The notes under the pieces were generated by a model. That model did no database searches. It was given only the letters and a program-made list of their open reading frames with translations, and was not told the DNA's origin. 64,000 bases of DNA from Stigmatella ashevillena (lineage in GTDB: Bacteria; Myxococcota; Myxococcia; Myxococcales; Myxococcaceae), in contig NZ_JAQNDM010000002.1 in NCBI RefSeq assembly GCF_028368975.1, positions 3,590,425-3,654,424 of the forward strand, read 5' to 3'. Each line of letters begins with the position of its first letter. The stretch's first letter is position 1. The position numbers were made by a program, and so were the translations under genes. Shown here one piece after another: positions 1 through 26,564 of the stretch.

Positions 1-337
1 GCAGACCTTCCCCAACCCGGCGGCCGAGCGCGACTATGAGATCGCCTTCGACGTTCCGGAGTTCACCTGCCTGTGCCCGATGACCGGGCAGCCCGACTTC
101 GCGCACTTCAAGATCCGCTATGTGCCGGACGAGCTGTGCGTGGAACTCAAGAGCCTCAAGTTCTACATGTGGTCCTACCGCAACGAGGGCGCGTTCCACG
201 AGAAGGTGACCAACACCATCGCGGACGACATCATCCGGGCCATCAAGCCCCGCAAGCTCACGGTGGTGGGAGACTTCTTCGTGCGCGGCGGCATCGGCAC
301 CGTCGTCACCGTGACGCACGAGAAGAAGAAGGGCTAA
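1..337 (+). CDS. queF: NADPH-dependent 7-cyano-7-deazaguanine reductase QueF (3' part)
   Basis: QueF reduces the nitrile of preQ0 to the aminomethyl of preQ1 with NADPH, a cytosolic step in queuosine synthesis for tRNA. The gene enters from the left edge; the frame is open from base 2. The fragment holds the catalytic stretch FTCLCPMTGQPDF, with the thioimide-forming Cys in LCPMTG and the partner Asp in QPD. It also holds the QueF family motif ELKSLKFYMWSYRNEG. It ends about where the short, single-domain QueF type ends. Its substrate preQ0 is also the base inserted by the putative Dpd DNA-modification genes about 5 kb downstream, so the two could compete. The missing start lies outside the window. 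Confidence 0.95.
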   Translation, partial: QTFPNPAAERDYEIAFDVPEFTCLCPMTGQPDFAHFKIRYVPDELCVELKSLKFYMWSYRNEGAFHEKVTNTIADDIIRAIKPRKLTVVGDFFVRGGIGTVVTVTHEKKKG

Positions 338-1248
338 AGCCCTCCGCGCAGCTCCAGCTTCATCCGGAACGTGCCCTCCTGCTCTTGCAGGAGCGCCACC
401 CACCGGCCGAGGTGGAAGCCCCGCACGGGCGCCTGGGGATCCGGGAAGCCCGGCGGCAGACGCCACTCCGGAGGCAGACGCCGCCCCAGCGCAATGGGCC
501 GCTCCCGCCGCAGCTCCCCCACCTCCGCATCCGAGAGCTCTCGCAGGGCGCTCCAGGGCAGCAACTGGCGTCCGTGCAGCCCCACGCGCCGCCCAGGCCC
601 CGGGTCCTCCCAGGGACCGATGGCCGTGCGGTGCAGCCGGGCCAGGTGGGCCCCACACCCGAGGCGCCTTCCCAGCTCCCGGGCCAAGGAGCGCACGTAG
701 AAGCCTCCCCGGCACACCAGCTCCAGCCGGCTGGAGCGCGGCAGATCGTGGGAGAGCCAACGCGCCTCGTGCAAGTAGACGCGTGAGGGCGGCAGCACCA
801 CCTCCTCGCCCCGGTGGGCCTTGCGGTACGCGGGCTCTCCGCCCAGCTTCTTCGCGCTGGTGGCGGGAGGCACCTGGTCATGCCACCCCCGGAAGCCCCC
901 GAGCGCCGCCTCCAGCGCCTCGGGCGTCAGGGCAGAGGGGTCTCCCTGGTGAACCACCCGGCCCAGCAGATCTCCGTTGTCCGTCTCCGAGCCCCAGAGG
1001 ACCTGCGCCACATAGCGCTTCGGCACGGCGTGCAGCAGGTCCATCAGCCGCGTGGCCTGGCCCACCAGCAGCAGCAGCAGCCCCTCGGCGAACGGATCCA
1101 GCGTCCCACCGTGGCACACGGGCACCCGCTTGCCAGGGCGCGCGGCCTCGAGCTCGGCCATCGCGGCGCGCACCGAGGTGAAGCTCGTCTCCCCCAGCGG
1201 CTTGTGGACGAGGTGAATGCCGGGCTCCAGCGGCGCGGCCTCCCTCAA
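334..1248 (-). CDS. truB: tRNA pseudouridine synthase TruB family
   Basis: Predicted to isomerise a uridine to pseudouridine in tRNA (U55 in the TruB family). The core motif CHGGTLDPFAEGLLLL carries the catalytic Asp, followed by VGQATRL and the RYVAQVLWGSETDNGD segment typical of TruB. The frame is open up to 1350, but that extension runs inside the kinase gene and looks unrelated. I chose the TTG at 1246-1248, whose last bases overlap the kinase stop codon (TTGA); this gives 304 residues, the usual TruB length, and a purine-rich AGAAGAAG lies upstream. It follows the Ser/Thr kinase with a 4-base overlap, so translation is probably coupled. Its 3' end overlaps queF by 4 bases, tail to tail. 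TruB often sits beside rbfA and rpsO instead; a second copy elsewhere is possible. Confidence 0.85.
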   Translation of the reverse strand: MREAAPLEPGIHLVHKPLGETSFTSVRAAMAELEAARPGKRVPVCHGGTLDPFAEGLLLLLVGQATRLMDLLHAVPKRYVAQVLWGSETDNGDLLGRVVHQGDPSALTPEALEAALGGFRGWHDQVPPATSAKKLGGEPAYRKAHRGEEVVLPPSRVYLHEARWLSHDLPRSSRLELVCRGGFYVRSLARELGRRLGCGAHLARLHRTAIGPWEDPGPGRRVGLHGRQLLPWSALRELSDAEVGELRRERPIALGRRLPPEWRLPPGFPDPQAPVRGFHLGRWVALLQEQEGTFRMKLELRGGL

Positions 1249-2369
1249 CGCTTCATCTTCTTCTCGACGGGAGGAGCCCACTGGTCCTGGGTGAGGTAGA
1301 TGCCCGTGCCCGTGGCGGTGGCCAGGGCGAGCAACGCCGCCACGACCCACTTGAGCTTCCCGCCTCCCGACCGCTTGCGGCGGCCCGCCGCGTAGGAGTC
1401 CAGCACCCCCAGCTCCGCTTGCGTCAGGTGCGCCAGCGCCTCCGACTCCGTGAGCTTCTCCCGGTGGCGCAGGAAGGCCACCAGCAGGGCCGGGTGAGAG
1501 ACTTCGATCTCCCGGGCCAGGAACAGGTCCAGCTCGCGCCGCATCGCCGCCGCGTCCGGGTAACGGTTCTCCGGCTTCACCTCCAGGGCGCGCTGGACGA
1601 TGTTCGCCAGGGGCTTGGGCACCTCGGGGGCCACCTTGTGCAGCGGCTTGTACAGGCCATCGCGGATCTTCGCGAACACCTCGCCCGCGGTCCGCCCCTG
1701 AAAGGGACGCGCCCCGGTCAGCGTCTCGTAGAGCAACACCCCCAGCGAGAAGATGTCGGTCCGGGCATCCAGCTTCGCCCCGGTCACCTGCTCCGGAGAC
1801 ATGTACGCCGGCGTGCCCACCGCCACGCCCTGCTGGGTGAGCGCCACCATGTCCACATCCTTGGCGATGCCAAAATCCATCAGCTTCACCTCGCCGGACT
1901 TGGCGAGCATGACATTGGCGGGCTTGAGGTCGCGGTGGATGATGTGGCGGAAGTGCGCATGGTCCAACGCGCTGGCGATGCGCGCGCAGATGACGGCGGC
2001 CACATCGGCCGGCAGCGGCCCCTCCTTGATGAGCTCCTGAAGGGTGGGCCCATCCACGAACTCCAGCACCATGAAGAGGCTGTCGTTCTTCTCCACCATG
2101 TCATACAGGGTGACGATGTTCTGGTGGCGGAAGGCGGCCAGGGCGAGCGCCTCCCGGTGGAAACGCGAGAGCGACTCCTTGTCCCGCTGGCCCTCGGGCA
2201 GCAGCTCCTTGATGGCGGCCTCGCGCTGAATGGCCTCGTGCAGGCCCCGGTACACCTGGGCCATTCCCCCGCGGCCCAGCTCTCCGAGCACGCGATAGGG
2301 GCCGATCTTCCGGTGACGAATGGGGTTCTTGTCCGACTTGTCCTTCTGGGGGTCAGCCACGGGCCACAC
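1245..2369 (-). CDS. Membrane-anchored serine/threonine protein kinase
   Basis: Eukaryotic-type (Hanks) kinase of 374 residues. All catalytic elements are visible: glycine loop [12 protein letters not shown], the Lys in [23 protein letters not shown] and [10 protein letters not shown]. After the kinase domain (about residues 25-285) comes a basic stretch RRKRSGGGK and one hydrophobic segment [19 protein letters not shown] near the C-terminus, so the kinase domain should be cytosolic with a very short outer tail and no sensor domain. GTG at 2367-2369 is the longest start; a second GTG at 2358-2360 is as plausible, since neither has a clear ribosome site. It overlaps the truB-like gene by 4 bases. 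The partner and substrate are unknown. Confidence 0.93.
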
Positions 2370-2553
2370 GGTAGCGGCTTGTGCCCGGACCGTCGACAGG
2401 TCTCACGCGTCCTCCTTGCCTGCTCCCGGTCGAAGCAGGCTCAACCGGGTTTCTCCGCGACACCGTGAAGCCTCGCCGAGTGGACAGCGCCCAGGCACGG
2501 AGACGTAACATCCTCCCACTGGAGCGCACCGCGGAACACCCTGCGCCCCCGGG

Positions 2554-4044
2554 ATGCCCCTCATGTCCGCTTCGTCCGACGCCCGCCTCTCCGTAGGCCT
2601 CCGCCTGCTGCTCCATGGCGGCTCGGTGCTCGTGGGGCTCTTCACGTTCGTCTACGCACGGCTCGTGTGCACCTTCATCTGCGGCCTGCCCACGCCCGTG
2701 CTGGCCCGCACCGTCGCGATCCTCACGGTGCTCCACATCTCGCTCCGGGAATTGCTGCTGCAGCTCGTCCCCTTGTCCGGAAAGGGCTCTTCCCCCGCCC
2801 GGCGGGCCTGGCTCCTGTCGACCCTCGCCTGGGGCGTGACAGGCCTGGCCGCCAGCATCCTTCACAAGGCCCAATACCCCTCCTTTCCCCTGTTCAGCCA
2901 CGTGAAGTTCGCCGTGGGCTATTGGCTCCTGGGCGGAGCGCTCCTGGGCCAACTGGAGTACCTCCTCTTCGAGCGCGCGTTGCCCCCCGCCCCCTCCGTC
3001 TCCCGGACCGAGCAGCTTCGCGAGCGGCTGGGACGGCGGCTGCTCGAAGGCTATGTCATCTTCACCACCGTCCCCGCCGGGGTCCTGCTGCTCACGCTGC
3101 TGCGCTTCATCTGGGAGTTCCAAGGCGAAGCGCACTACGTGGTGGAAGCGGCCGTGATGTCCCTGGGCTTCACGGGCATCGCGCTCGGGGTGGCGGTCGC
3201 CTATGGCCGGAGCGTGCGCCGGGACACCGAGCGGCTGCTCGAGGCGGTGCGCCGCGTGGGCAGCGGAGACTTCCAGCCGGGCGCCGCCACGAGCCGACCG
3301 GACGAGCTGTTCCTCGTCGCCGAGGGCATCAACGAGATGGCCGGAGGGCTCCAACTGCGCGAACGCATCCGCGAGGCCTTCGGACGCTTCGTCTCGCCGC
3401 AGGTCGCCTCCGAGTTCATCGAGAAGTACGCGCGCCACGGAAAGGCGGCGGTGATGGGAGGGGAGCGCAAGGACGTGGTGGTGCTCTTCAGCGATCTGCG
3501 CGACTTCACGCACCTGTCGGAATCCCTGGCGCCCGAGGTGCTCATCGAGGTGCTCAACGGCTACTTCCAGGAGATGGTCGGCGCCATCCAGCAGCACGGG
3601 GGCATGGTGGACAAGTTCATCGGAGACGCGGTGCTGGCCGTGTTCGGCTTGACCGAGGGGGCTGGCAACCCCGCGCGCGCGGCCGTGGCCGCGGGCCTGG
3701 AGATGCAACGGCGCCTGGAGGCCTACAACGCGCGGCTGGCCGCGCGAGGCATCCAGCTCCGCTCGGGCGTGGGCATCCACGCGGGCGAGGCCGTCGCCGG
3801 CTACCTGGGGAGCACCGACCGGATGGAGTTCACGGTCATTGGGCACACGGTCAACGTGGCCTCTCGCATCGAGGGCCAGGCCCGCGAGCCCCGCCCTGCC
3901 CTGCTCTTCAGCGAGGAGGTGGCCCGCCGCTTCGGCGATGCCTTCCGCGTGAAGGAGGTCGGCAGCGTGGCCCTCAAAGGCGTGGCCCAGGAGGTCCGCC
4001 TGCTCTCGGTGACGGGCGAGGCGGGCTCGGCCCAGGTGGCCTGA
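2554..4044 (+). CDS. Membrane class III adenylate/guanylate cyclase
   Basis: Makes a cyclic nucleotide from ATP or GTP at the inner membrane. The first ~215 residues hold about six hydrophobic segments with no sensor family I recognise. A HAMP-like segment follows (about 225-280), then a class III catalytic domain from about 305. The metal-binding Asp pair appears in VVLFSDLRDFT and GDAVLAVFG. The Lys of VDKFIGDA matches the adenine-selecting position, but the usual Asp-Tyr-Thr before VIG is Glu-Phe-Thr, and VIGD is VIGH. The transition-state Asn and Arg are present in VNVASRIEG. Nucleotide choice is therefore uncertain. It is divergent from the kinase across about 180 bp. Confidence 0.92.
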   Translation: MPLMSASSDARLSVGLRLLLHGGSVLVGLFTFVYARLVCTFICGLPTPVLARTVAILTVLHISLRELLLQLVPLSGKGSSPARRAWLLSTLAWGVTGLAASILHKAQYPSFPLFSHVKFAVGYWLLGGALLGQLEYLLFERALPPAPSVSRTEQLRERLGRRLLEGYVIFTTVPAGVLLLTLLRFIWEFQGEAHYVVEAAVMSLGFTGIALGVAVAYGRSVRRDTERLLEAVRRVGSGDFQPGAATSRPDELFLVAEGINEMAGGLQLRERIREAFGRFVSPQVASEFIEKYARHGKAAVMGGERKDVVVLFSDLRDFTHLSESLAPEVLIEVLNGYFQEMVGAIQQHGGMVDKFIGDAVLAVFGLTEGAGNPARAAVAAGLEMQRRLEAYNARLAARGIQLRSGVGIHAGEAVAGYLGSTDRMEFTVIGHTVNVASRIEGQAREPRPALLFSEEVARRFGDAFRVKEVGSVALKGVAQEVRLLSVTGEAGSAQVA

Positions 4045-4054
4045 GGGCCTCGCG

Positions 4055-4525
4055 TCACTTCGCTGCGTCGTCCATGGCCCGCTGGAGCGTGGCGCCCAGC
4101 GAGTTCACCTCCCGCTGGTGCGTCTCGAGGATCTCGGTCACGGCCGTACAAGGCCCAAGCGAGGAGCCCCCACGGCGGCCCTCGGGCTGGTTCTCGCAGC
4201 ACTGGGCCTCCATGCTGACGCTAATGGTGCTGCCGGACGAGGCGGTGGGCGCCACGGTGGTGGTGAAGCGCCGCATCAGCGCGCCTTCCTTCTGGTTGGG
4301 CAGGTAGCAAACGCTCGTGGGCTCCCACTGCGTGTGGATGATGCCCAGGCCCGGCTCGACGCTCTCGGGGGGATGGCCCGCGGACACCAGGGCCCTCACG
4401 AGCGTGTCGAGGGGAGACTCAGGCCCCTGAGGCGCCTTGAAGATATAGGGCCGCTGCGGCTGCGTGCAGCCCCCGAGGACAAGGGCCAGGACAACACCGA
4501 AACGGACGGAGCAAACACGCGACAC
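4055..4525 (-). CDS. Putative lipoprotein, unknown function
   Basis: A 156-residue protein with a clear lipoprotein signal: a short basic start, the hydrophobic stretch FGVVLALVL and the lipobox LGGC near residue 18. I chose the GTG at 4523-4525 because GGAGG lies five bases upstream; the open frame goes on to 5278 but has no comparable start. The mature part has scattered Cys residues (VCYLP, AQCCENQ, LGPCTAV) that could form disulfides, and a helical C-terminus. I do not recognise the family. The gene is divergent from the PaiB-like gene with only 45 bp between starts, so their promoters must overlap. Confidence 0.75.
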   Translation of the reverse strand: MSRVCSVRFGVVLALVLGGCTQPQRPYIFKAPQGPESPLDTLVRALVSAGHPPESVEPGLGIIHTQWEPTSVCYLPNQKEGALMRRFTTTVAPTASSGSTISVSMEAQCCENQPEGRRGGSSLGPCTAVTEILETHQREVNSLGATLQRAMDDAAK

Positions 4526-4570
4526 AGAACCTCCAAACCGGGAAGGAGCCCCCCGTGTTACCACACACCC

Positions 4571-5188
4571 ATGTACACACCTCCCCATTACAAGGAAGAG
4601 CGCCCCGAAGCGCTCCAGGCCTTCATCCACCAGCACAGCTTCGGCCTGCTCATCAGCCCAGGGCCCCAAGGCATGGAGGCCACGCACCTGCCCTTCCTCT
4701 TGGAAGTGGACGGCGCCGGCCCCGGACGGCTCCTGGCGCACCTGTCCCGGGCCAACCCGCAGTGGAAGCACCTGGAGGAGGCCGGCGAGGTGCTGACCGT
4801 CTTCTCCGGGCCCCACGCCTACATCTCCGCTTCCTGGTACACGGAGCGCACGGACGTTCCCACGTGGAACTACGTGGCCGTTCACGCCTATGGGCGCGCC
4901 CGGCGGGTGGACGGAGAGCGGCTGCACGGCATGCTCGCGCGGATGGCCCAGCGCTACGAAGCGACCAGCGCCGTGCCCTGGTCGCTCGGGGAAGTCCCCG
5001 AAGCCTCTCTCCAGGCCATGACGAAGGGAATCGTGGGCATCGAAATCGAACTCACCCGGCTGCAAGGCACACGAAAGCTGAGCCAGAACCGCTCGGCCGA
5101 GGACCAGCAACGCGTCCTCCAGGCGCTGCGGGAACGAGGCAGCCCGGACGATCTCGCCCTCGCCGCCCTCATGGAGCGCCCATCCTAG
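4571..5188 (+). CDS. PaiB-like FMN-binding negative transcriptional regulator
   Basis: 205 residues matching the PaiB/FMN-binding split-barrel family along their full length: the start MYTPPHYKEERPE, THLPFLLE, the segment VFSGPHAYISASWY, VPTWNYVAVHAYG, and the tail KLSQNRSAEDQ. Bacillus PaiB is linked to repression of sporulation and degradative-enzyme genes; other members bind flavin and are probably oxidoreductase-like. The family name is safe; a regulatory role here is only inferred. The ATG at 4571 fits the family's usual N-terminus. Confidence 0.88.
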   Translation: MYTPPHYKEERPEALQAFIHQHSFGLLISPGPQGMEATHLPFLLEVDGAGPGRLLAHLSRANPQWKHLEEAGEVLTVFSGPHAYISASWYTERTDVPTWNYVAVHAYGRARRVDGERLHGMLARMAQRYEATSAVPWSLGEVPEASLQAMTKGIVGIEIELTRLQGTRKLSQNRSAEDQQRVLQALRERGSPDDLALAALMERPS

Positions 5189-5344
5189 ACCGCACCGAAG
5201 CGCACGGGGTGAAACCCTATCGACAAGGTTGGGTGATACATGCTCTACCTCCGAGGTCACCTCACGGTCCCTACCCATCAGGGGAGTTCTCGGTTCAAGC
5301 CCTCCCCCACGCGAACGCCCTAGACCTCATCACGAGCGGATACC

Positions 5345-6346
5345 TTGAGCGTGCTCTGCTCCCCTATGCCTGTCGACCTTCACATCATCGCAAGTTGTAC
5401 AGACCGCAAACGGATGGCTGTGCCGGACACACTCCGGTTGCGGAGCGTGAAAGCCTCAGGTATCGAAGCCCGTGCTCGCCAATGGTGGGGCCGCCTGGAG
5501 CAGCACGCCGCTCCGCCTGTCTGTGCAATGGAACTCTACGCAGGTGACCACTGGCGCATCATCCGGGAACTTCCGGCAGTCGCAGTCGAGGCGGGATTCT
5601 CCCCCCAACTCTGGATCGCCTCCGCGGGATATGGGCTCATTCCTTCCAACGCAGTCATTCACCCGTACTCCGCCACCTTCGCTCCTGGAAAACCTGACTC
5701 CGTGACGGTGGACCAGGCCGGTCTGCGCACGCGGGCACAGCACCAGCACTGGTGGGACGCGCTCTCGCGAATGGACTGCCCTGCCCCCCGTGCGCCGCGG
5801 CAGGTCCAGCACCTCGCCGAGTCTGGACGCAACCCCATCATCCTCATCGTCGCGTCACCGTCCTATGTCGCCGCGCTCGAGAAGGATCTCGTGCGCGCGG
5901 CCCAGGCACTTCATCGCCCCGAGCGGCTCATCATCATCTCGGCGCGCTCCAGCATCTCTCGCGGCACCTTGGCGCCCCATTGGGTCCCGTCGAGCGCCCA
6001 CCTCCAGGCACGGCTGGGAGGAGCGCGCCTGTCCCTCCATGCCCGCGTGGCCCGGAAGGCCCTTCAGCGCGCGAGACACGGGATTCTGGACGCACGCGAA
6101 CTCCGAGGGTATTACGGGCGGCTCATCCAAGGTAGCCATCCCCTCGTCCGCTACGAGCGGACTCCTATGACAGATGACGACGTACGGGCTTTCATCGCGC
6201 AGGCGCTGCGCACGGATCCTCTCTCCTGCAGCGCCACCCTCCGGAAGTTGCGCGACAGTGGCCATGCGTGCGAGCAGCAGCGATTCAAGCGACTCTTCCT
6301 CGAACTCCGGGGATGCGCGTTTCCACCTGGCGGGGCCGCCACGTGA
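5345..6346 (+). CDS. First gene of Dpd-type operon; DpdC candidate
   Basis: A 333-residue cytosolic protein. The N-terminal half has features I associate with the YaaA/DUF6884-like fold: ASCTDRKR (residues 16-23 from the TTG start), ELYAGDHWR and the segment ASAGYGLIP. The C-terminal third is helical and basic. It overlaps the dpdA-like gene by four bases (GTGA), so the genes are translationally coupled. In Salmonella Montevideo, DpdC turns DNA-bound preQ0 into its 7-amido form; gene context makes this the natural DpdC candidate, but I cannot prove homology by eye. The longest start is TTG 5345 with a weak GAGCGGA site; ATG 5366 also keeps the conserved core. Confidence 0.6.
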   Translation: MSVLCSPMPVDLHIIASCTDRKRMAVPDTLRLRSVKASGIEARARQWWGRLEQHAAPPVCAMELYAGDHWRIIRELPAVAVEAGFSPQLWIASAGYGLIPSNAVIHPYSATFAPGKPDSVTVDQAGLRTRAQHQHWWDALSRMDCPAPRAPRQVQHLAESGRNPIILIVASPSYVAALEKDLVRAAQALHRPERLIIISARSSISRGTLAPHWVPSSAHLQARLGGARLSLHARVARKALQRARHGILDARELRGYYGRLIQGSHPLVRYERTPMTDDDVRAFIAQALRTDPLSCSATLRKLRDSGHACEQQRFKRLFLELRGCAFPPGGAAT

Positions 6347-7650
6347 AATTTTTTCTCCCTGACAGCCAGGATCTCGTCGACCCCTCCTTTGACTTCGAGA
6401 ATGAGCAGCGCGCCAAGGACCGGCGGCGCCAGCGGCATGATCTCTACGCGCATGAGGTTTTTTCTCAGCCTGCCTTTGACGGATTCCTGGTCTCCAAAGG
6501 CATGGTGGATGGCTTCGGGGCGCTGGGCAGCCGCTATACGCTTTCGCAGCGCCTTCGCTTGTCACAGATAGGGGCTCCGGAGTTCTTCCGCGTGAACCGA
6601 GCCCCTCATCCTCTCCAGATCATGGGGGACTGCGGCGCTTTCACATACGTGAAAGAACAGAAGCCTCCCTACAGCGTCGATGACGTGATGGATTTCTACG
6701 CCACCTGCCGGTTCGACTATGGCGTTTCACTGGACCACGTCATCCTCGACTTCCTCCCAGAGGCGGACGCGCCGGGGGCAGGCCCTCGGGCGGTGCCCGC
6801 CGCCATCCGCCGTCGACAGGAATTGACGCTCGAGTACGCCTCCGAATTTCTCCACAAGCACACGCGGGGCCGCCATGCCTTCAAGCCCCTGGGCGTCGCC
6901 CAGGGCTGGAGCCCTCAATCCTACGCCACCAGCGTCAAGCGCTTGCAGCAGATGGGTTACGACTACATCGCGCTGGGAGGCATGGTCCCCCTCAAGACCC
7001 AAGACATCCTCCGGTGCCTGCAAGCCATCCAGGCCCAGCGCGCCCACGGCACGCGCCTGCACCTGCTTGGCGTGACACGCACCGAACACATCGAGGAGTT
7101 CTACCGGCTGGGGGTCGCCTCGTTCGACAGCACCTCGCCCCTTCGACAAGCCTTCAAGGATGCCCATGACAATTACTATCACAATGGGCTCACCTACACC
7201 GCCATCCGCATCCCTCAAGTCGAGGGCAATACGAGCCTACAGCAACGGATTGCCTCGGGCCAGATATCACAAAACCAGGCGCGCAAGCTGGAGACCGCCT
7301 GCCTTCAGGCCATGCGGCTGTTCGATTCGGGCCGCCGTTCCATCTCCAAGGTCATCGAGGTGCTCCTCGAGTACGAGGACCTGTATGCACCCGACGCGAA
7401 ACGCAATCATGCCAAAGACTATGAGCGGACACTCCGGGATGCGCCCTGGCGCCGGTGCGCCTGCGACATCTGCAAACACCTCAAACACCATGTCATCATC
7501 TTCCGAGGAGCGGAGCGCAACCGGCGGAGGGGCTTTCACAACATCTGGAGCTTCTATCGCCATATGCGCGACTCCGGTACGGACACCCATGAGTTCACCG
7601 TAGGGCAACAGGTTGCTGGCTTGAAGGAACGCGCATGTCGGACGAATTGA
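6343..7650 (+). CDS. dpdA: DpdA-like DNA guanine transglycosylase (TGT superfamily)
   Basis: A distant tRNA-guanine transglycosylase relative of 435 residues. TGT enzymes swap a guanine base for a 7-deazaguanine; DpdA does this in DNA with preQ0. The general-base Asp sits in IMGDCGAF (residue 96), the nucleophile Asp in ASFDSTSP (residue 262), and a TGT-type zinc site Cys-x-Cys-x-x-Cys at 372-377 is followed by His residues. The sequence is much more divergent than tRNA-modifying Tgt, and the flanking DGQHR gene points to DpdA. GTG 6343 is chosen because it overlaps the previous stop codon; the frame also extends up to 6268. It overlaps the next gene by 16 bases. Confidence 0.85.
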   Translation: MKFFLPDSQDLVDPSFDFENEQRAKDRRRQRHDLYAHEVFSQPAFDGFLVSKGMVDGFGALGSRYTLSQRLRLSQIGAPEFFRVNRAPHPLQIMGDCGAFTYVKEQKPPYSVDDVMDFYATCRFDYGVSLDHVILDFLPEADAPGAGPRAVPAAIRRRQELTLEYASEFLHKHTRGRHAFKPLGVAQGWSPQSYATSVKRLQQMGYDYIALGGMVPLKTQDILRCLQAIQAQRAHGTRLHLLGVTRTEHIEEFYRLGVASFDSTSPLRQAFKDAHDNYYHNGLTYTAIRIPQVEGNTSLQQRIASGQISQNQARKLETACLQAMRLFDSGRRSISKVIEVLLEYEDLYAPDAKRNHAKDYERTLRDAPWRRCACDICKHLKHHVIIFRGAERNRRRGFHNIWSFYRHMRDSGTDTHEFTVGQQVAGLKERACRTN

Positions 7651-8756
7651 GGCTTCCCGCCCTGGAAGTGCACCAATCCAAGGGACGCAAGCTGTACTCC
7701 TTCGCCGTGGACGGGAAGCTGTTGCAGGACTTCGTCACCGTCTCGCGTGTGCGCCGAGGTGACGGAAATGAGCTGTCAGGCTACCAGCGGCCCGAGGCGC
7801 TTGCTCACATTCAAGAGATCCGCGCCTACCTGGAAGCCCCCTCCCCCCTGATCCCCAACTCCATCATCCTGGCCTTTGACTCCCGGGTCCGGTTCGAGCC
7901 CGCCAAGGGCAAGACCTCGCTGCCCTACGTGCGAACGGGGACCCTCGTGATTCCCCTGGAAAAAAACATCGCCGACCCAGACAAACCCGGCTTCGTCGTG
8001 GATGGACAGCAACGCCTGGCGGCCATCCGGGATGCGAACATCCACCGGCTTCCCGTCTGTGTCACGGCGTTCATCACCAACGACGTCAGGCAGCAGACCG
8101 AACAGTTCATCCTCGTCAATTCGACGAAGCCCCTCCCCAAAGGGCTCATCTACGAGCTCTTGCCCGGCACGGACGCACACCTTCCCTCTCCCCTGCACCG
8201 ACGCAAGCTCCCAGCGCTCCTGATGGAGCGGCTGAACCTGGACGAGGACTCTCCGCTCTCGGGCCGCATCCGCACGACGACCAATCCAACGGGCACCATC
8301 AAGGACAACTCCGTCCTCAAGATGATTGAGAACAGCCTGAGCGATGGCGTCCTCTTTCATTTCCTGCGCCCGGAGCGGGCCCATGGCGCGGATGTGGCCT
8401 CGATGGGGGAGGTGCTGCACCACTTCTGGGCCGCCGTGGCCCGGGTCTTCCATGCCGCCTGGGGACTGCCTCCGAAGAAGTCCCGGCTCCTGCACGGCGC
8501 GGGGATCATCAGCCTGGGCCATGTCATGGATGCCATCAGCCGGGTGCGCAATGTCCCCCTCATTCCGACGGAAGCCCAGTACGTCGAGAAGCTGATGCCC
8601 CTCCAGGAGCTCACCCATTGGACCGGGGGTTCTTGGAATTTCGGCAATGGCGAGCGCCGGAAATGGAACAACCTCCAGAACACGCCCGGCGATATCGAGC
8701 TGCTCTCCAAATACCTCTGCACCCCATACCAAAAGCAAGCCAGCCGGTCACTGTGA
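7635..8756 (+). CDS. dpdB: DpdB-like DGQHR-domain protein
   Basis: 373 residues with the motif FVVDGQQRLAAIRDA (Asp at residue 123), the DGQ-x-R signature of the DGQHR/ParB-like family that includes DndB and DpdB. The surrounding pattern also fits: NSIILAF before it, and TEQFILVNSTKPL after it. In Salmonella, DpdB is needed together with DpdA to place preQ0 in DNA, and probably acts with it; DndB relatives control phosphorothioation. ATG 7635 lies 16 bases inside the dpdA end and has GAAGGAAC just upstream, so it is the last gene of the three-gene operon. No helicase, nuclease or AAA gene follows. Confidence 0.82.
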   Translation: MSDELRLPALEVHQSKGRKLYSFAVDGKLLQDFVTVSRVRRGDGNELSGYQRPEALAHIQEIRAYLEAPSPLIPNSIILAFDSRVRFEPAKGKTSLPYVRTGTLVIPLEKNIADPDKPGFVVDGQQRLAAIRDANIHRLPVCVTAFITNDVRQQTEQFILVNSTKPLPKGLIYELLPGTDAHLPSPLHRRKLPALLMERLNLDEDSPLSGRIRTTTNPTGTIKDNSVLKMIENSLSDGVLFHFLRPERAHGADVASMGEVLHHFWAAVARVFHAAWGLPPKKSRLLHGAGIISLGHVMDAISRVRNVPLIPTEAQYVEKLMPLQELTHWTGGSWNFGNGERRKWNNLQNTPGDIELLSKYLCTPYQKQASRSL

Positions 8757-8826
8757 AACAGATCACTCCCGGGTGATGTGCATTCCCCATGGGCGATTGC
8801 CGCATCAACCGTTATGAGGGAGCCCC

Positions 8827-9819
8827 ATGACCTTCCTCAAGCGCTTCCTCCTCACGGGTGCCCTGCTGGGCGCATTGCCGGGCGCCGCGCAAACCAGCGC
8901 GGCGGCTCCTTCCTTCCAGACCGCCCAGGACATTGACGCCTGGAAGGAGAAGAACCGGAACTGGAACCGCTGGGGGCCGGAGGATCAGCTCGGCGCCGTG
9001 AACCTGATCACCCCCGCCAAGCGGAAGGAGGCCGCGAAGCTCGTCCGGGAAGGCGTCTCCGTCTCCCTCGCGCACCCCCTGGAGACCCAGAAGGCCGAGG
9101 ACGTCCCCTCGCCCCTCGGTCATCGCATGCTCTTCACGGGTGAATCCCCGGAGTCCCAGTACACCGCCGACGCCCTGTCCCTCGAATTCCATGGCTTCAC
9201 GCACACCCACCTCGATGCGCTCTGCCACGTCTTCGATCACGGCAAGATGTACAACGGGTATCCGCAGAGCCTCGTCACCGCGAAGGGATGCGCGAAACTC
9301 GCCGTGAGCGCGCTCAAGGACGGCATCCTGACACGCGGCGTGCTCATCGACATCCCGGCCCTCCAGGGCGTTGCCTACCTGGAGCCAGGAACCCCCATCC
9401 ATGCGAAGGACCTGGAGGCCTGGGAAAAGAAGACGAAGGTCCGCGTGTCGAGCGGTGACGCCGTCATCATCCGCACCGGCCGCTGGGCCCGCCGCGCCGC
9501 CGTGGGCCCCTGGGACGTCTCGCAGCACTCCGCGGGACTGCACGCCTCCACCGCCGACTGGTTCAAGAAGCGCGGCGTTGCCCTCATCGCCACGGATGTC
9601 GGCCTGGATGTGCTTCCCTCGGGAGTGAAAGACGACCCGTTCCCGACGCACGTGATGGTGATCAACGCCTTGGGCATTTCCGTCCTCGACAATGCCGACA
9701 CCGAGGCGCTGGTCCAGGCTGCCGCCGAGCGGAAACGCTACGACTTCCTCCTCAGCATCGCCCCCCTGCGCGTGGAAGGCGGCACGGGCTCTCCGGTCAA
9801 CCCCATCGCGACCTTCTGA
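8827..9819 (+). CDS. Exported cyclase-family (kynurenine formamidase-like) hydrolase
   Basis: 330 residues with a cleavable signal peptide (FLLTGALLGALPGAAQTSAAA) at the start, so periplasmic or secreted. The mature protein matches the metal-dependent cyclase/formamidase family (PF04199): NRWGPEDQLGAVNLIT near the start, the metal-binding stretch FHGFTHTHLDALCH, and VIIRTGRW further on. Members hydrolyse amides such as N-formylkynurenine or related cyclic substrates; the substrate here is unknown. AGGGAGCCCC precedes the ATG at 8827. It lies 70 bp after the Dpd-like operon on the same strand but has its own ribosome site, and nothing links it to DNA modification. Confidence 0.85.
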   Translation: MTFLKRFLLTGALLGALPGAAQTSAAAPSFQTAQDIDAWKEKNRNWNRWGPEDQLGAVNLITPAKRKEAAKLVREGVSVSLAHPLETQKAEDVPSPLGHRMLFTGESPESQYTADALSLEFHGFTHTHLDALCHVFDHGKMYNGYPQSLVTAKGCAKLAVSALKDGILTRGVLIDIPALQGVAYLEPGTPIHAKDLEAWEKKTKVRVSSGDAVIIRTGRWARRAAVGPWDVSQHSAGLHASTADWFKKRGVALIATDVGLDVLPSGVKDDPFPTHVMVINALGISVLDNADTEALVQAAAERKRYDFLLSIAPLRVEGGTGSPVNPIATF

Positions 9820-9830
9820 GCCCCGCGCGA

Positions 9831-10307
9831 CTACTCCGCGCAGGGAAAGGACGTGTCGAGCGTCTTGCTGCCCTTGACCCCGGGCCCCGTCAACGTGACG
9901 GTCACCTGGACCTTCGAGGCGCACGCGTAGGGCAGCAGAAAGGGCACCTGGGTGGTGCCCTCCTCGGACAGGGCGTGCAGGGTGCGCGTCTGGGTGACCT
10001 TCCACGCGGGACGGTCACCGGAGGCCTCGGAGGACTCCTTCGGGGCGCTGACCACGAGCTTCAGCTTCAGCGGAGCATCCCCCTCGTGCGTGCCCTGCAC
10101 CTTCACGACGATGAAGGCATCCACGTTCATGCCGTAGGGGTCGGAAGCCTCTTCCACCGAGACGATGGCGCCCTTCTGCCGGTCATAGACGCGGGCCTCG
10201 ACGCTGACAAGGGAGGGCTTGGGTGCGGCAGGCGCTCCCCCCGCGGCGAGGGACTGCAAGAGCATGCCGCCCAGCACGAGCGGGCGCAGGGATCGCCACG
10301 AATTCAT
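9831..10307 (-). CDS. Exported protein of unknown function
   Basis: 158 residues. The N-terminus MNSWRSLRPLVLGGMLLQSLAAGGAPAAP reads as a Sec signal peptide with an Ala-rich cleavage region. The mature part is beta-rich (VSVEARVYDR, DAFIVVKVQG, KLKLVVSAPK, KVQVTVTLTG), has Cys residues only near the end, and looks like an immunoglobulin-type sandwich. The ATG at 10305-10307 is the first start that gives a signal peptide; the open frame runs on to 11258 but crosses the esterase gene. It converges on the cyclase-family gene with 11 bp between the stop codons. I do not recognise the family. Confidence 0.7.
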   Translation of the reverse strand: MNSWRSLRPLVLGGMLLQSLAAGGAPAAPKPSLVSVEARVYDRQKGAIVSVEEASDPYGMNVDAFIVVKVQGTHEGDAPLKLKLVVSAPKESSEASGDRPAWKVTQTRTLHALSEEGTTQVPFLLPYACASKVQVTVTLTGPGVKGSKTLDTSFPCAE

Positions 10308-10604
10308 CCGAAGCTCCGGGTTCCAGGCCGCGCCTTCGCGGCGGTGCGCCCGCTTACCATCCGGCCTTCCGGCACGGAAGCCTCCCCCTTCCGGGCGCAA
10401 CTGCTGCTCGAACCCCACGGAGAAAGGCCCCACGCGATCAAACGTACCGGGCGGCCCGCAGGGACCGGCACCAGTTCGACCAGCTTCGGGGCCACGCGCG
10501 TGCGCGCGCCGCCCCGCCGCTGACCCGACCCGCCACGACCTTGAAACGCTTCTCCGCTCGACGTTCCAATCGCTCAGCGAAGCATACGAAAGGGGACATC
10601 GCGG

Positions 10605-12110
10605 ATGACCATCCATACCGTGAACACAGAGGCAGGGCGACTCACCGGTGACCACACCGACGGGGTCGCCCGCTTCCTGGGAATCCCCTACGCGGCAGCT
10701 CCAGTAGGCGAACGCCGATTCGCCCCCCCGGGCCCTACCGAACGATGGGCAGGGACCCGGAACGCCACCGGTTACGGCGCTACCGCACCCCAGCCGGCAT
10801 TGCACCCCGCTCACGCGTATCTGGCGCCACTGATCGGGCCCGGATGGGTCACCGGAGACGGCGACTACCTCAATCTCAACGTCTGGACACCCGACCCCGG
10901 CACGAGTGGGCTTCCGGTGATGGTCTACGTCCACGGCGGCGGGTTCATGATCGGCTCGGGCGCAGCCCCCGCCTTCGACGGCACCTCGTTCGCGCGGGAC
11001 GGCGTCGTCCTGGTCACGGTCAACTACCGACTCGGGGCGGAGGGCTTCCTCGCACTGTCCGGTGGAATCACGAACATCGGATTGCGCGATCAGATCGCAG
11101 CACTGCACTGGGTTCGCGACAACATCGCTGGGTTCGGCGGGAACCCGGACAACGTCACCCTCTTCGGCGAATCGGCTGGCGGCTCCTCGGTCGCGTTCCT
11201 GCTGCGCTCCCCGCTGGCCGTCGGACTGTTCCGGCGAGCGATCGTCCAGAGCGGACACGACGAGATGGCCCGTCGGCTCGAGCTCACCGAAGAACTCACG
11301 AAGGCACTCGCCGCCCGGCTCGGAACCTCCCCGACAACAGGCGCATTCCGAGCAATCTCAGCCCCCAACCTGCTGCGCGGTCAGGCAGCTCTGCTCAGAA
11401 GCGAACCCCGCCCAGACCTGCGCGATGACAACGGTGTCGACCCAGGCCATCGTCGTGCACTGTTCCTCCCCACCACGGGTGACGACGTCCTCCCTGACCC
11501 AGTCGGGGTACCGAGCACACTCTCGCGCGGCGTCGACCTGTTGATCGGCACAACACTCGAGGAAGCCAACCTCGGTTTGGGTGCCGACGCGTTCGCCGCC
11601 TTCGACGCGCATGACGCCGTAGCCGAGCTGGCCGCCACCTACCCCGATGCCGAAACGCTCCTCGAACGACACGGTCTCCACGACCCGGCTGTCACTCCCG
11701 CGCAAGCACTCACAGCCGCCTACACGGACCTGATGTTCCGAGCACCGAGCCGCCGCACCGCGCGCCGCCACCCAGGCCCCGCCTACGTCTACGAATTCGC
11801 ATGGCGATCACCCCTGCATGGCGCCGCACACGGCCTCGACGTCCCCTTCGTCTTCGACACCACACAGGCATGCCGCGGCCTCATCGGCGACGCCGCACCC
11901 GACGCCCTCACCCAAGCGATGCACCAAACCTGGCTCGACTTCGCAACCCACGGAAATCCCGGCTGGCCCACCTACGACGACGCCAGAAAAGCGATGAGGT
12001 TCGATGCCAGCCCCCACCTCTGCGAGGACACCGCTCCCAACGACACCGGTGCCGAATACTTGCCGAAACGCAGCGGGCAAAGAACCTCCACTTCGCGAGG
12101 CTCTCGGTAA
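10605..12110 (+). CDS. Type B carboxylesterase
   Basis: 501-residue alpha/beta hydrolase of the carboxylesterase type B family (PF00135). It has the oxyanion-hole motif YVHGGGFMIGS, nucleophile elbow LFGESAGGSS with the catalytic Ser, an acidic residue in GTTLEEANLG, and the His in GAAHGLDVPFVFD. No signal peptide, so cytosolic. AAAGGGGA lies nine bases before the ATG. Upstream, TTGAAA (10541) and TCCAAT (10565) with an 18-bp spacer could form a promoter, weakly. Protein wording and codon habit look actinobacterial to me, and a gene acquired from that group is possible but untested. Substrate unknown. Confidence 0.92.
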   Translation: MTIHTVNTEAGRLTGDHTDGVARFLGIPYAAAPVGERRFAPPGPTERWAGTRNATGYGATAPQPALHPAHAYLAPLIGPGWVTGDGDYLNLNVWTPDPGTSGLPVMVYVHGGGFMIGSGAAPAFDGTSFARDGVVLVTVNYRLGAEGFLALSGGITNIGLRDQIAALHWVRDNIAGFGGNPDNVTLFGESAGGSSVAFLLRSPLAVGLFRRAIVQSGHDEMARRLELTEELTKALAARLGTSPTTGAFRAISAPNLLRGQAALLRSEPRPDLRDDNGVDPGHRRALFLPTTGDDVLPDPVGVPSTLSRGVDLLIGTTLEEANLGLGADAFAAFDAHDAVAELAATYPDAETLLERHGLHDPAVTPAQALTAAYTDLMFRAPSRRTARRHPGPAYVYEFAWRSPLHGAAHGLDVPFVFDTTQACRGLIGDAAPDALTQAMHQTWLDFATHGNPGWPTYDDARKAMRFDASPHLCEDTAPNDTGAEYLPKRSGQRTSTSRGSR

Positions 12111-12179
12111 GGGGTCCACGGGAGCGGGGGCGGGCCCCGCATCCCGTTTGAGCTTCGGCACGGGGGGTTCAGGGACGGC

Positions 12180-12515
12180 TCAGCACTCGTCCCACTTGGC
12201 CGAAAGGAATTTCCAGCCGTGCTGCGCGCAGCGGAACTTCCCGAAGTTACCGCAGTTGCCGTACTCGACGCCCGGATAGGGGCCGTACCAATGGCCCGGA
12301 TTGTTTGAGCATCGGATGAAGCAGCACGCTTTCAGCTCGCCCACCGTGTCCTCGTCCGGATCCAAAGTTCCTCCCGAGGGGGGCCACGAGGCGTTCTCGG
12401 CAGGGGAAGGAGCCTCCTCCTTCGTTTCAGGTTCTCCTCCGCAACCCGCGGACAGAAGGGCTCCGAACAGGAGGGCACTCGTGATGCTGAATCCATTCGA
12501 GCTTCGGCGTCTCAT
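12180..12515 (-). CDS. Small Cys-rich lipoprotein, paralogue of the next gene
   Basis: 111 residues. ATG at 12513-12515 has GGAAAGGA upstream; the signal ends in the lipobox LLSAGC. The mature chain has an acidic spacer (EPETKEEAPSPAE) and then a compact C-terminal domain of about 50 residues containing CCFIRC, WYGPYPGVEYGNC, FGKFRC and a terminal Cys. The same pattern of Cys, Trp-Gly-Pro and Tyr-x-x-Cys recurs in the neighbouring lipoprotein, so the two are tandem duplicates. Six or more Cys in a short domain suggest a disulfide-knotted module displayed on the outer membrane. No function is recognised. Confidence 0.75.
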   Translation of the reverse strand: MRRRSSNGFSITSALLFGALLSAGCGGEPETKEEAPSPAENASWPPSGGTLDPDEDTVGELKACCFIRCSNNPGHWYGPYPGVEYGNCGNFGKFRCAQHGWKFLSAKWDEC

Positions 12516-12541
12516 GAGAATGTCCTTTCCAGATGACGGCG

Positions 12542-12841
12542 CTAACACTTCTTCCACGCATTGCCCTCATAGGGCAGATGCCGCTGACCACAGTGATACC
12601 TGCCGAAAGAGGGGCAGTTATTGTAGACAACCGACTTGAAAGGCCCTGCCCAGTCCACGCCCGCGCATTTGACGTAGCAACAAACGGCTTGCTCTTCCGG
12701 GGCGCTTGAGGACTCCTGCTCCGATACGGGCGCTTCGGGCTCCAGCATCCCGTCTTCCTCCGGCAAGCCCACGTCTCCGCATCCCGCCGCGAAACCTGCT
12801 CCGGCCAAGAACAGCCACATCCTGCTGAAACACTGCTTCAT
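12542..12841 (-). CDS. Small Cys-rich lipoprotein, paralogue of the previous gene
   Basis: 99 residues. ATG at 12839-12841 has AGGGGGG upstream; the signal peptide ends with the lipobox FAAGC. An acidic Ser/Glu-rich linker leads to a C-terminal domain CCYVKC ... DWAGPFKSVVYNNC ... FGRYHCGQ ... KKC, which aligns with the domain of the 111-residue lipoprotein downstream. The two genes are 26 bp apart in the same direction and likely form one transcript. Linker sequences differ while the Cys frame is kept, suggesting selection on the domain. Function unknown. Confidence 0.75.
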   Translation of the reverse strand: MKQCFSRMWLFLAGAGFAAGCGDVGLPEEDGMLEPEAPVSEQESSSAPEEQAVCCYVKCAGVDWAGPFKSVVYNNCPSFGRYHCGQRHLPYEGNAWKKC

Positions 12842-13193
12842 GAAGCCCCCCTGTCTGTGTTCAGAACCCAAGAAACCGAGCCTGGCCCGTCTCAAGGCTC
12901 GGCACTGTAAGCCGCCCCCTGCCCGAGCAGGACAGCAGGGGGTCCGGAAAGGGACAGGGGCGTTGACCGCTGGATGATACGCACACACGAGACATTGCTG
13001 AGACAACACTCACACCCTCCTGGAGGGTACAGCCCCTCAGTCAAAACCCGAGATCCAAGTTTGCCGCTTGAGATCAATTGAAGATCATGGGGGGGGTTCA
13101 AGGAATGGCATGTCCGAACCTCGGACGTCCAGGCTCGTAAAACGCCCCAAGATCCGGATCTTCACTTCCACGTAAGCACAAGGGGTCTTGCAT
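12842..13193. other. 352-bp divergent intergenic region with several inverted repeats
   Basis: No gene seen. It separates the Cys-rich lipoprotein pair (minus strand) from the GNAT pair (plus strand) and is less G/C-biased than the genes. Four inverted repeats stand out: CCGAGCCT/AGGCTCGG around 12875-12900, ACCCTCC-T-GGAGGGT at 13014-13028, GTCCGA-ACC-TCGGAC at 13112-13126, and the perfect palindrome listed separately at 13149-13162. It presumably holds promoters for both directions, but I see no convincing -35/-10 pair. Confidence 0.6.
13149..13162. promoter_or_regulatory. Perfect 14-bp palindrome, possible operator
   Basis: AAGATCCGGATCTT reads the same on both strands and lies about 32 bp upstream of the ATG of the first GNAT gene, where a repressor site would be expected. 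Half-site length and symmetry suit a helix-turn-helix dimer. No regulator gene is adjacent, so the binding factor is unknown, and a chance palindrome cannot be excluded. Confidence 0.35.
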
Positions 13194-18121: not shown

Positions 18122-19531
18122 ATGCCAAGCCCCCGAGCCCCCGAGTTGAACCCTGCGCTGCTTCCTCCTGGCACCGTGGTGGGCTCCTGGCGTGTGGTCT
18201 CCTGGGCGGGCCGTGGCGTCCACGGCGTCGTCTACCAAGCAGTCCCGGTCACCGATGAGCATGCCGTTCCCACAGCGCTCAAGCTCGCCCTGCTCCCCCG
18301 AGATTCCCGCTTCGCCCGCGAGGTAGAGTTGCTCTCCCGCGTGCGGCATCTCTGCATCCCTCGGCTGAGGGACTCCGGCACATGGCAGCACCCGGGGGAT
18401 ACGCTTCACCCCTTTCTCGTGATGGACTGGGTGGATGGAACGCCTTTGTATGACTGGGCCCAGCAGCACAGTCCCTCCTCCCAACGAGTGCTGCGGCTGC
18501 TCGCCCAACTGGCGCGCGCCCTCCAAGCCGTGCATGCCCAGGGCTGCCTTCACCGCGACGTCAAGGGCGACAACGTCCTGGTGCGCCACTCCGATGGCAG
18601 CGCCCTGCTCACCGACTTTGGCTCTGGCCGATTCCCAGATGCCGCCACCCTCACCCCTGGCACCCTACCTCCGGGTACCCCGGCCTACCGCTCCCCGGAG
18701 GCCTGTCTGTTCGAACTCCAGTTCTTCCGTGATCCCCGGGCCCATTACGCCGCCCAGCCAACCGATGACCTCTACGCCCTGGGCGTCACCGCCTACCGGC
18801 TCGTCACGGGCCAGTACCTTGAGTTCGGAGACCCGATTCGAGATGCATCTGGCACCTGGCACCTGGAGGGCCTTGTCTCGGCCGCTCCCCTTGCCCTCAA
18901 CCCCTCCCTGGATCCGCAGCTCAATGCCTTGATCCTTCGCATGCTCTCCATGCGCCCCGAGCAGCGCGGCACCGCAATGGAACTGGCCTGCGCGCTGGAG
19001 CAAGCAGCGCAGTGCTCCAGTCCTGAGAGCACCCCTTCGTGTCTCGGGCCGGATGCCGCCGCACGTGTCGGGCCTCCAACACGAGCCCCACCGAGGCAAG
19101 GCTTGTTCGCGGCGGCAGCAGCGCTCATGGTGTGGATCATCTGGGTTTGCGGGAGCACGCCCCTGAACGTCCCAGCGCCGCCCACCGTCGTCAGGCAAGA
19201 GTCGGACGCGGCCGGTTTGGAGGACGGTGGTACCTCAGGGCTCGGCGATGAGGCCGTCGCGTCCTCCGTGGCCCCCTCCGTTCCCTCCGTGTCAGGAGAG
19301 CCGGCCGAGAGCACACTCCCCGAGCCGCTTCCAGGCCAAACACGACCCAATGCGAAGGGCCGATGCCCTCACCCACGACAAATTCCCCTCAATGGCGGTT
19401 GTTGGGTCAAGACCTCGGTGGATCGAGAGGGATGCGAGGCTCTCACCGGCACCATGATTGATGGAAATTGTTATGTGCCCGTCGCTACCCGTGAGCGTCA
19501 GCCCACGTCACACCCTGTGTGCACTCCGTAA
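18122..19531 (+). CDS. Serine/threonine protein kinase with C-terminal Cys-rich tail
   Basis: 469 residues. The kinase domain (about 20-275) has GRGVHGVVY, the Lys in ALKLALL, HRDVKGDNVLV, DFGSGRF and GTPAYRSPEA, so it should be active; the Ala-Pro-Glu position reads Arg-Ser-Pro-Glu. A membrane segment (LFAAAAALMVWIIWVCG) at about 325-343 is followed by a Ser/Pro-rich stretch and an outer tail with CPHPRQIPLNGGCW and GTMIDGNCYVP, a Cys-pair module common in myxobacterial kinases. GAGGGACCC precedes the ATG. The target and the signal sensed by the tail are unknown. Confidence 0.93.
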   Translation: MPSPRAPELNPALLPPGTVVGSWRVVSWAGRGVHGVVYQAVPVTDEHAVPTALKLALLPRDSRFAREVELLSRVRHLCIPRLRDSGTWQHPGDTLHPFLVMDWVDGTPLYDWAQQHSPSSQRVLRLLAQLARALQAVHAQGCLHRDVKGDNVLVRHSDGSALLTDFGSGRFPDAATLTPGTLPPGTPAYRSPEACLFELQFFRDPRAHYAAQPTDDLYALGVTAYRLVTGQYLEFGDPIRDASGTWHLEGLVSAAPLALNPSLDPQLNALILRMLSMRPEQRGTAMELACALEQAAQCSSPESTPSCLGPDAAARVGPPTRAPPRQGLFAAAAALMVWIIWVCGSTPLNVPAPPTVVRQESDAAGLEDGGTSGLGDEAVASSVAPSVPSVSGEPAESTLPEPLPGQTRPNAKGRCPHPRQIPLNGGCWVKTSVDREGCEALTGTMIDGNCYVPVATRERQPTSHPVCTP

Positions 19532-23277: not shown

Positions 23278-23337
23278 GGAATCGCACCTTGTTCCACGGC
23301 TGGGCGCGCAGGGACTGCATCGCGCGATGGAGTGATG

Positions 23338-24270
23338 TCAGGGGTGGCCCAGGTAGCCACCCATTTTTGGGAAGAAATCCCGGGCTGCGATGGGGCTCTG
23401 TCCCGGCGGCTGCACCTCCATCAGGATGATGCCGCAAGCGCCCACCTTCCCTGGCCCTCCGCACGCCACTGCCACTCCCTCTTCGGCATGGCAGATGAGC
23501 CGACCAGGCGTTCCACAGTAGGCCCGCTTTGGTAACTTGGCCCGCTTGAGCAGAAGCTCGCTCCCTTCGTAGTCTGTGCGTGCGTTCAGGAACGGATCGC
23601 TCTGGGCACGGATCAGGTTGTAAAGTTCAAGGCTGCTCTGGTTCCAATCCGCCCTTGTGTCCCGGGGGGCGATGCGATGGTAGAAGACCGATTGTGAGAG
23701 GTCCTGCGGCTGGCCGCGGTAGCCCTCGTTCAGCAGTGACAAGCCGCGCAGGACGAGCCCCGGATAGCGGATGAGCAACCTGTGGTACACATCGGTCGCG
23801 GTGTCTTCCACGCCAATGGGAACCCGCTCTTGGGCGATGATGTCCCCCGTGTCGAACTCACCGCTCATGAGGTGAACCGTCAGACCGGTCTCGGCCTCAC
23901 CGTTCCGGATCGCCCAGTTGACGGCGCCGAAACCTCCATATTTGGGCAGCAGGGCATCATGGATGTTGATGGCCCCAAGCCGGGGAAGCCCGAGCAGCGC
24001 AGACGGCACCAACGTGCGCCAGTTGGTTGATACGATGGCATCGGGGCGCAGCCCTGCCACTCGTGGGATCAACTCCGGTTCGGCCGCGCGAGGAGACAGA
24101 AAAGTGGGCAGCCCCTCGGCCTCCGCCACACGCAGGACATCGTTGTCTCCAAGTCCGGTGAAGTCAGGGCGATGGGTGAGCACCAGTCCGACCCGGTGCA
24201 CGGCCGCCAGCCCTTCCAGAACCGCCGCCCCCAGCTCGCCAAACCCCATGAACATCAGGTCAAGTGGCAT
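23338..24270 (-). CDS. Formyltransferase-family protein (Fmt/GART-like)
   Basis: 310 residues. The formyl-transfer domain fills the first ~190 residues and has the catalytic triad Asn102-x-His104 in [13 protein letters not shown] and Asp140 in FDTGDII, as in methionyl-tRNA and glycinamide formyltransferases that use 10-formyl-tetrahydrofolate. The C-terminal domain, after [10 protein letters not shown], resembles the Fmt/ArnA C-terminal beta barrel, but the whole is not typical Fmt. Its start lies 11 bp inside the end of the argininosuccinate synthase gene, so they are coupled. A role in N-formylating an amino acid or amine made by this operon is inferred. Confidence 0.82.
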
Positions 24271-25504: not shown

Positions 25505-25541
25505 GTTTCCTCCTGCTGAGGGGGTGACCGTGCGCGATGAC

Positions 25542-26315: not shown

Positions 26316-26564
26316 CCTTTCGTCCAAGACGGAGCCCTCTGCGATCTCTTGTGACTCGACAATGGGAAGGATGAGCCTCAGGGCCACCCCTTTCGAGGCA
26401 TAGGCGAAGGCCACCCGCCAGGAGGGATGGCAAGAGGGGAAGCAGTGCTTGGAGACGACATCAAAAAGCGGTCGTCAGGCTGCTCCGTCCCCCCCCATTT
26501 GGGAGGCAGGCAAGCACGGACCGGGGGAGTTCAGACAGACCACCACGCCCCAGAGTGCACCGGG

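Follow-up and report, generated by a model that had tools for sequence, protein, structure and literature searches.

Introduction

Bacterial Dpd islands place 7-deazaguanines in DNA. In the available text of PMC12839542, DpdA is the enzyme for 2'-deoxy-7-cyano-7-deazaguanosine (dPreQ0), DpdB is a ParB-like ATPase that is perhaps dispensable in some clusters, and DpdC is a DUF328 protein hydrolysing dPreQ0 to 2'-deoxy-7-amido-7-deazaguanosine (dADG). The GATOR-GC survey of gene clusters (PMC11888242), as far as its accessible text goes, describes dpd islands that have no restriction operon, some of them with dpdC and with Archangium named, as well as six Myxococcota windows in which the restriction content is reduced but some genes are retained. 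Here we analyse a three-gene cassette, dpdC-dpdA-dpdB, within a 64 kb stretch of the Stigmatella ashevillena genome (hereafter the window), which is probably a modification-only Dpd system that lacks a cognate Dpd restriction module.

The cassette shares features with each of the closest described systems. It resembles the restriction-less islands of Archangium in having dpdA, dpdB and dpdC but no restriction operon in a myxobacterium, and differs from them in genus and chromosomal site; the source for those islands is a cluster survey (PMC11888242, available text). The initial annotation of the window had stated that no such minimal operon was known in myxobacteria, which fails because of these Archangium islands; the kind of system is therefore already known. 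Its description of known islands as carrying restriction genes holds for the fully intact islands, which are the most frequent (over 50%), but these stand among 146 different gene compositions in the accessible part of the same survey. The literature searched, that is, the best-ranked papers with most subscription journals outside the scope, yielded no further myxobacterial report.

The island of the Enterobacter cloacae plasmid pPOL9A, whose type is that described in Salmonella Montevideo by the wording of the papers in their available text, has the same gene order (C-A-B, for dpdC-dpdA-dpdB) and the same three families, with 49%, 50% and 28% identity to the window's DpdA, DpdB and DpdC, respectively. 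Unlike the window, it carries the restriction genes dpdD-dpdK, and in the tree its DpdA does not join the C-A-B proteins of myxobacteria. Islands of the form with a second dpdB (C-B-A-B) also contain these three families, and the window's DpdA group nests among their myxobacterial members; in contrast to the window, they have the second DpdB and often also linked queC, queE and queD as well as restriction sets of the D-K-J or E-F-G-H kind, none of which lies nearby here. Finally, phage DpdA systems introduce 7-deazaguanines that protect the phage DNA, and they do so with no Dpd restriction partner (PMC6884629, available text). However, only 1 of 50,697 phage records was matched by tblastn (a fecal contig, 40.7% identity) and no relative was confirmed in a scan of viral contigs, and a phage origin of the cassette was rejected.

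Results

Three overlapping genes encode DpdC, DpdA and DpdB

As had been annotated, three successively overlapping genes occupy positions 5345-8756 of the plus strand, the start of dpdB lying inside the end of dpdA (Table 1), and profile searches bear out the proposed identities. DpdA scored 563.6 bits against the NCBIfam DpdA model (curated cut-off 200) and DpdB 466.9 bits against its own (cut-off 300), while DpdC matched the PADLOC DpdC model at 4e-101 (no curated cut-off shown); these scores are far beyond chance. No NCBIfam DpdC model was matched by the window's DpdC. In the PDB, DpdA matched the DNA-guanine transglycosylase 7ui4 (7e-125), whereas the DpdC and DpdB sequences had no match there at E 1.

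In an alignment of four DpdAs (from the window, its nearest cassette-bearing relative G096, the Enterobacter plasmid and an Agrobacterium plasmid), D96, D262, C372, C374, C377 and H399 are invariant, and the first five are exactly the residues named beforehand when counted from GTG 6343. We take the two aspartates to be catalytic and the remaining four residues to be zinc ligands, as in tRNA-guanine transglycosylases (TGTs). The DGQQR motif noted at residue 123 of DpdB (123-127) is invariant in all five DpdBs aligned, so its deviation from "DGQHR" is ordinary. The likely start of dpdA is GTG 6343, which overlaps the dpdC stop as GTGA. That of dpdC is likely ATG 5366 and not TTG 5345, because each of the five C-A-B loci inspected has ATG as the homologous codon.

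DpdC matched Pfam families weakly (PF03883 YaaA, 0.057; DUF6884, 8e-4). An AlphaFold2 model of the protein built from 14 sequences reached a mean predicted local distance difference test score (pLDDT) of 89.5. Among 998 realigned chains, E. coli YaaA (DUF328) ranked first (Z 8.4, 199 aligned residues, root-mean-square deviation 6.0, 10% identity), followed by an unrelated entry at Z 7.5, and Foldseek returned no match to the model at E 0.001. The model thus agrees with the published DUF328 assignment, short of proving the fold.

Table 1 Features of the dpd cassette and its flanks in the window.
Feature	Positions	Strand	Description
Left flank gene	4118..5188	+	Flavin mononucleotide (FMN)-binding PaiB-like, PF04299 7.7e-58 (residues 152-314 of the open reading frame); true start probably inside the open reading frame
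Cassette	5176..8783		About 3.6 kb; missing from two same-genus genomes; filled by three dpd genes
dpdC	5366..6346	+	326 aa; probably DUF328/YaaA-like; predicted preQ0-in-DNA hydrolase giving 7-amido-7-deazaguanine (ADG); earlier start of open reading frame TTG 5345
dpdA	6343..7650	+	435 aa from GTG 6343; predicted DNA-guanine transglycosylase inserting preQ0; NF041059
dpdB	7635..8756	+	373 aa; DGQHR-family (DndB/ParB-like) partner; DGQQR 123-127; NF041060
Right flank gene	8827..9819	+	Putative cyclase, PF04199 1.3e-19

Four markers of Dpd restriction are missing from the source genome

The absence of dpdD-dpdK beside the cassette, also noted in the annotation, was borne out. With the DpdD-DpdK proteins of the Enterobacter plasmid as queries, tblastn at E 1e-3 found no homologue in the window, nor in the 14 kb upstream, which were covered by a 20 kb stretch (L042) overlapping the window start. 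Four restriction markers, DpdD, DpdG, DpdH and DpdJ, were further searched genome-wide. DpdH had no match in the source genome (G000), while the same search matched 4 of 20 genomes, two over the cut-off; DpdD was likewise unmatched (3 of 16 genomes matched, two over the cut-off), as was DpdG (4 of 16, none over the cut-off). No full-length DpdJ was found either, the source genome giving only short helicase fragments, none of which exceeded 33.5 bits (cut-off 800; scores were obtained for 19 of its 26 first-look candidates), whereas DpdJ exceeded this cut-off in 3 of the 16 genomes searched. No complete Dpd restriction-modification island was thus found in the source genome, D, G, H and J being covered genome-wide and E, F, I and K in the window and upstream. 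In the loci compared, the latter four usually travel as part of D-K-J or E-F-G-H sets. Since this genome yielded no Dpd restriction module, the mark would most likely act alone.

The cassette could instead be half of a split restriction-modification system, with an unlinked partner, or one of an unrecognised type, acting in trans. In two other genomes, modification and restriction genes lie far apart. G062 has C-B-A-B genes at 1.4 Mb and homologues of D, K, J, H, G, F and E at 8.05-8.07 Mb; J scored above its cut-off but D, H and G below theirs, and K, F and E were found by tblastn; in G096, dpdCAB lies at 8.4 Mb and an unlinked J-K-D set (J and D over their cut-offs) at 3.3 Mb. In contrast, the four markers are missing not only from the source genome but from five of the six C-A-B genomes in all (one of the five, G139, being only 86% complete), with G096 as the sixth. 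We consider a split system unlikely for the window.

Three remote restriction sets were recorded in the course of these comparisons. The J-K-D set of G096 occupies 9956-15734 of L060, remote from dpdA; the D-to-E set of G062 lies 6.6 Mb from its C-B-A-B genes (L062/L065); and in G098 a second restriction set is found on contig C2, with the sole dpdA on C15 (L061/L075).

The short form of myxobacteria probably has a single origin

DpdA exceeded its cut-off in 16 of 195 Myxococcota genomes, and seven more gave weak matches under it. Six of the 16 have the order C-A-B (G000, G096, G061, G063, G066 and G139, the contig of the last beginning inside dpdC), nine have C-B-A-B, and G046 has a divergent DpdA; DpdH was unmatched in 12 of them. 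In the DpdA tree, where 5 of 22 inner branches are open and several branches are long, the six C-A-B proteins form one group with 85/95 support, seen in 88% of 200 bootstrap trees, and this group is nested in a 97/97 group together with two C-B-A-B genomes of genus g3. The myxobacterial C-A-B group is therefore likely, though short of established, and we regard one common origin for the short form as probable. Its nesting inside a C-B-A-B group suggests gene loss, for this group alone.

Genus g3 holds five dpd loci with common dpdC-side neighbours, and three of its six genomes have C-A-B. At this site G064 carries C-B-A-B plus E, F, G and H homologues, and G062 carries C-B-A-B alone. The simplest story would be a reduction at the g3 site followed by spread of the short form to the genus of the window.

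The C-A-B order as such is a different matter. On the Enterobacter plasmid it occurs with restriction genes and with a DpdA outside the myxobacterial group, which speaks against a single origin of the order, and five further C-A-B loci, found in a survey of named genomes, were left out of the tree; the order has therefore either arisen repeatedly or been present for long in certain lineages. That survey, a pattern-based and non-exhaustive scan of genome contigs with an alignment of myxobacterial DpdAs, gave 56 loci, some from genomes already counted above; a scan with a single DpdA protein had confirmed none. The order was C-B-A-B in 45 of the 56 and C-A-B in five; the other six (L138, L139, L141, L143, L145 and L146) have truncated, incomplete or mixed gene sets. 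Gene content was read from at most ten kilobases of flank, several flanks being short and helicase cross-matches possible. On this reading, at least one restriction-type match (D-K) accompanies 44 of the 56 loci, and none was found in the flanks, several of them short, of 12: L096, L097, L101, L110, L113, L115, L117, L126, L131, L143, L145 and L147. Among the five C-A-B loci, L103, L104 and L105 have such a match, L101 (Paraliomyxa) has none, and L131 sits on a 4 kb contig.

A different Dpd-like arrangement was seen on a Nostoc plasmid (L089) and a Paenibacillus plasmid (L090), where longer DpdAs accompany a second short TGT-like gene and nearby helicase or P-loop genes, with no DpdB listed in these stretches, whose gene tables are incomplete.

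The cassette is under purifying selection

C-A-B DpdAs that nest among C-B-A-B proteins, and restriction genes that are gone, would also fit a full Dpd island of which only a remnant is left, in decay or no longer active. However, the key residues are intact, all three reading frames are open in the five C-A-B loci inspected, and the ratios of nonsynonymous to synonymous substitution rates (dN/dS, Nei-Gojobori) are low in two species pairs. Between G000 and G096 they are 0.18 for DpdC, 0.09 for DpdA and 0.18 for DpdB, compared with 0.23 for the adjoining cyclase, and between G063 and G066 they are 0.19, 0.13 and 0.08, respectively. The cassette is under purifying selection, and we regard its being a remnant as very improbable.

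preQ0 could be supplied by the source genome

Remote from the cassette, the source genome encodes QueC (194.2 bits, cut-off 150.3), QueD (110.1 bits, cut-off 89.25), a QueE-like protein that stays under its cut-off of 300 (262.6 bits, 2.5e-78) and a queuosine-precursor transporter (151.1 bits against the TIGR00697 cut-off of 50.95), so preQ0 (7-cyano-7-deazaguanine) would be obtainable from its own genes. With a dpd-type QueE as the query, its QueE matched only weakly (2.6e-4); because no dpd-type QueE is present, the cassette would need the housekeeping enzyme.

That the DpdA-like protein is a tRNA transglycosylase can be rejected: it does match the Pfam TGT family (34.7 bits, cut-off 26.3) and its NCBI family is named "tRNA-guanine transglycosylase DpdA", but the tRNA Tgt model gives it only 24.2 bits (cut-off 306.75), compared with 563.6 from the DpdA model, two full-length tRNA Tgts are encoded elsewhere in the genome (517 and 436 bits, both over the cut-off), and the tree separates the DpdAs, the window's included, from these two with 100/100 support, which settles in favour of DpdA the grouping that the annotation had left to be checked.

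The Tgt genes form a paralogous pair at G000:C1:924622-925698 and G000:C2:1989667-1990734 (L086, L081), and two per genome were found in all four same-genus genomes searched.

The cassette occupies a site that is empty in two relatives

The three same-genus genomes G095, G096 and G097 were compared at the locus. In G095 and G097, which have no DpdA, the homologues of window positions 1-5175 (85% DNA identity) and of positions 8787 and 8784 onward, respectively, lie 13 and 10 bases apart, while in G096 the cassette occupies the same site as in the window. The DNA of the PaiB-like gene on the left is conserved in all three. The cyclase on the right has a match in six of the seven genomes of the genus (G000 counted), that in G098 being only weak (28% identity); G099 has none. 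G100 has only the cyclase and one short stretch in common with the window and is uninformative on the site. Third-position guanine-plus-cytosine content is 0.74-0.82 in the dpd genes versus 0.92 in gene 2554-4041 and 0.88 in gene 8827-9816, though values like those of the dpd genes also occur in several further genes of the window. This suggests that the cassette was gained at the site, although it may instead have been lost in G095 and G097.

A mobile element around the cassette was considered and rejected. The three dpd genes fill the cassette, so there is no room for an integrase or a transposase; no repeats of 12 or more bases occur within 5100-5500 or 8700-8900, and those in 5150-8830 resemble chance pairs.

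Neighbouring genes

A conserved additional partner of C-A-B was also rejected, since among the dpd loci compared the window's neighbours are common only to G096, save a kinase gene. This gene (18122-19525, PF00069 2.6e-27), about 9 kb from the cassette, matches the PADLOC mad6 and PD-T4-6 kinase models; in G126, a 46% relative lies roughly 5 kb away from the dpd genes. The stretch at about 10260-12610, which by eye contains a carboxylesterase-like gene (10605-12110), is not matched at the DNA level in G096, although that locus is colinear in other respects. On the minus strand, 12183-13009 encodes two adjoining small, secreted-looking, cysteine-rich proteins that look similar to each other by eye. 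Also on the minus strand, 21976-27908 contains a HalD-family halogenase (PF23169, 1.3e-98) together with an argininosuccinate-synthase-like ligase, a formyltransferase, an amino-acid permease and an amidohydrolase, and looks like a small cluster for a halogenated amino acid; we presume a link of its halogenase to the BesD-type amino-acid halogenases.

Discussion

We read the locus, with good though not full confidence, as a modification-only Dpd cassette that combines the dPreQ0/dADG chemistry known from the papers (PMC12839542, PMC6884629), which we infer to occur in this cell, with the lack of a cognate Dpd restriction module. The housekeeping enzymes of the queuosine pathway would supply preQ0, DpdA with DpdB as a helper ATPase would exchange guanine in DNA for preQ0, and DpdC would hydrolyse the nitrile to give dADG. 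Like the products of orphan methylases, the mark alone might then make the host DNA a poor substrate for nucleases from the cell itself, from phages or from plasmids; we would give this protective role slightly less than an even chance, and an epigenetic role is an alternative.

Several points weigh against a modification-only cassette. The genome-wide search for the cognate module covered DpdD, DpdG, DpdH and DpdJ, and that for DpdE, DpdF, DpdI and DpdK covered the window and its upstream stretch; and because G096 has an unlinked DpdJ-DpdK-DpdD set, a distant partner, perhaps of an unrecognised type, may in principle exist in the source genome as well. No conserved neighbour hints at a role. 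Positions 5100-8900 showed no sigma-70-like promoter, a result of little weight in this bacterial group.

The cassette is a well-preserved further example and not a new kind of system. What our analysis adds is the genome-wide lack of restriction markers, the empty site, the evidence for selection and, with some probability, one common origin for the myxobacterial short form. More tentatively still than the protective role, we propose that a myxobacterial Dpd lineage shed its second DpdB and its restriction arm, was kept by selection and has passed from genus to genus as a 3.6 kb cassette that suffices by itself; it would provide an orphan base-replacement mark whose own function is epigenetic or anti-nuclease, sometimes served by a distant restriction set, as in G096 and, for the longer form, in G062.

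If this is true, the cassette would be the deazaguanine counterpart of the orphan methylases. The replacement of bases by 7-deazaguanines in bacteria has so far been studied mainly as half of a restriction system, and a selected three-gene form without a cutter would allow the effect of the mark by itself to be asked about directly. Natural test pairs would be G000 and G096, which have the cassette, versus G095 and G097, which do not, and, in genus g3, the full versus the reduced islands that share a site.

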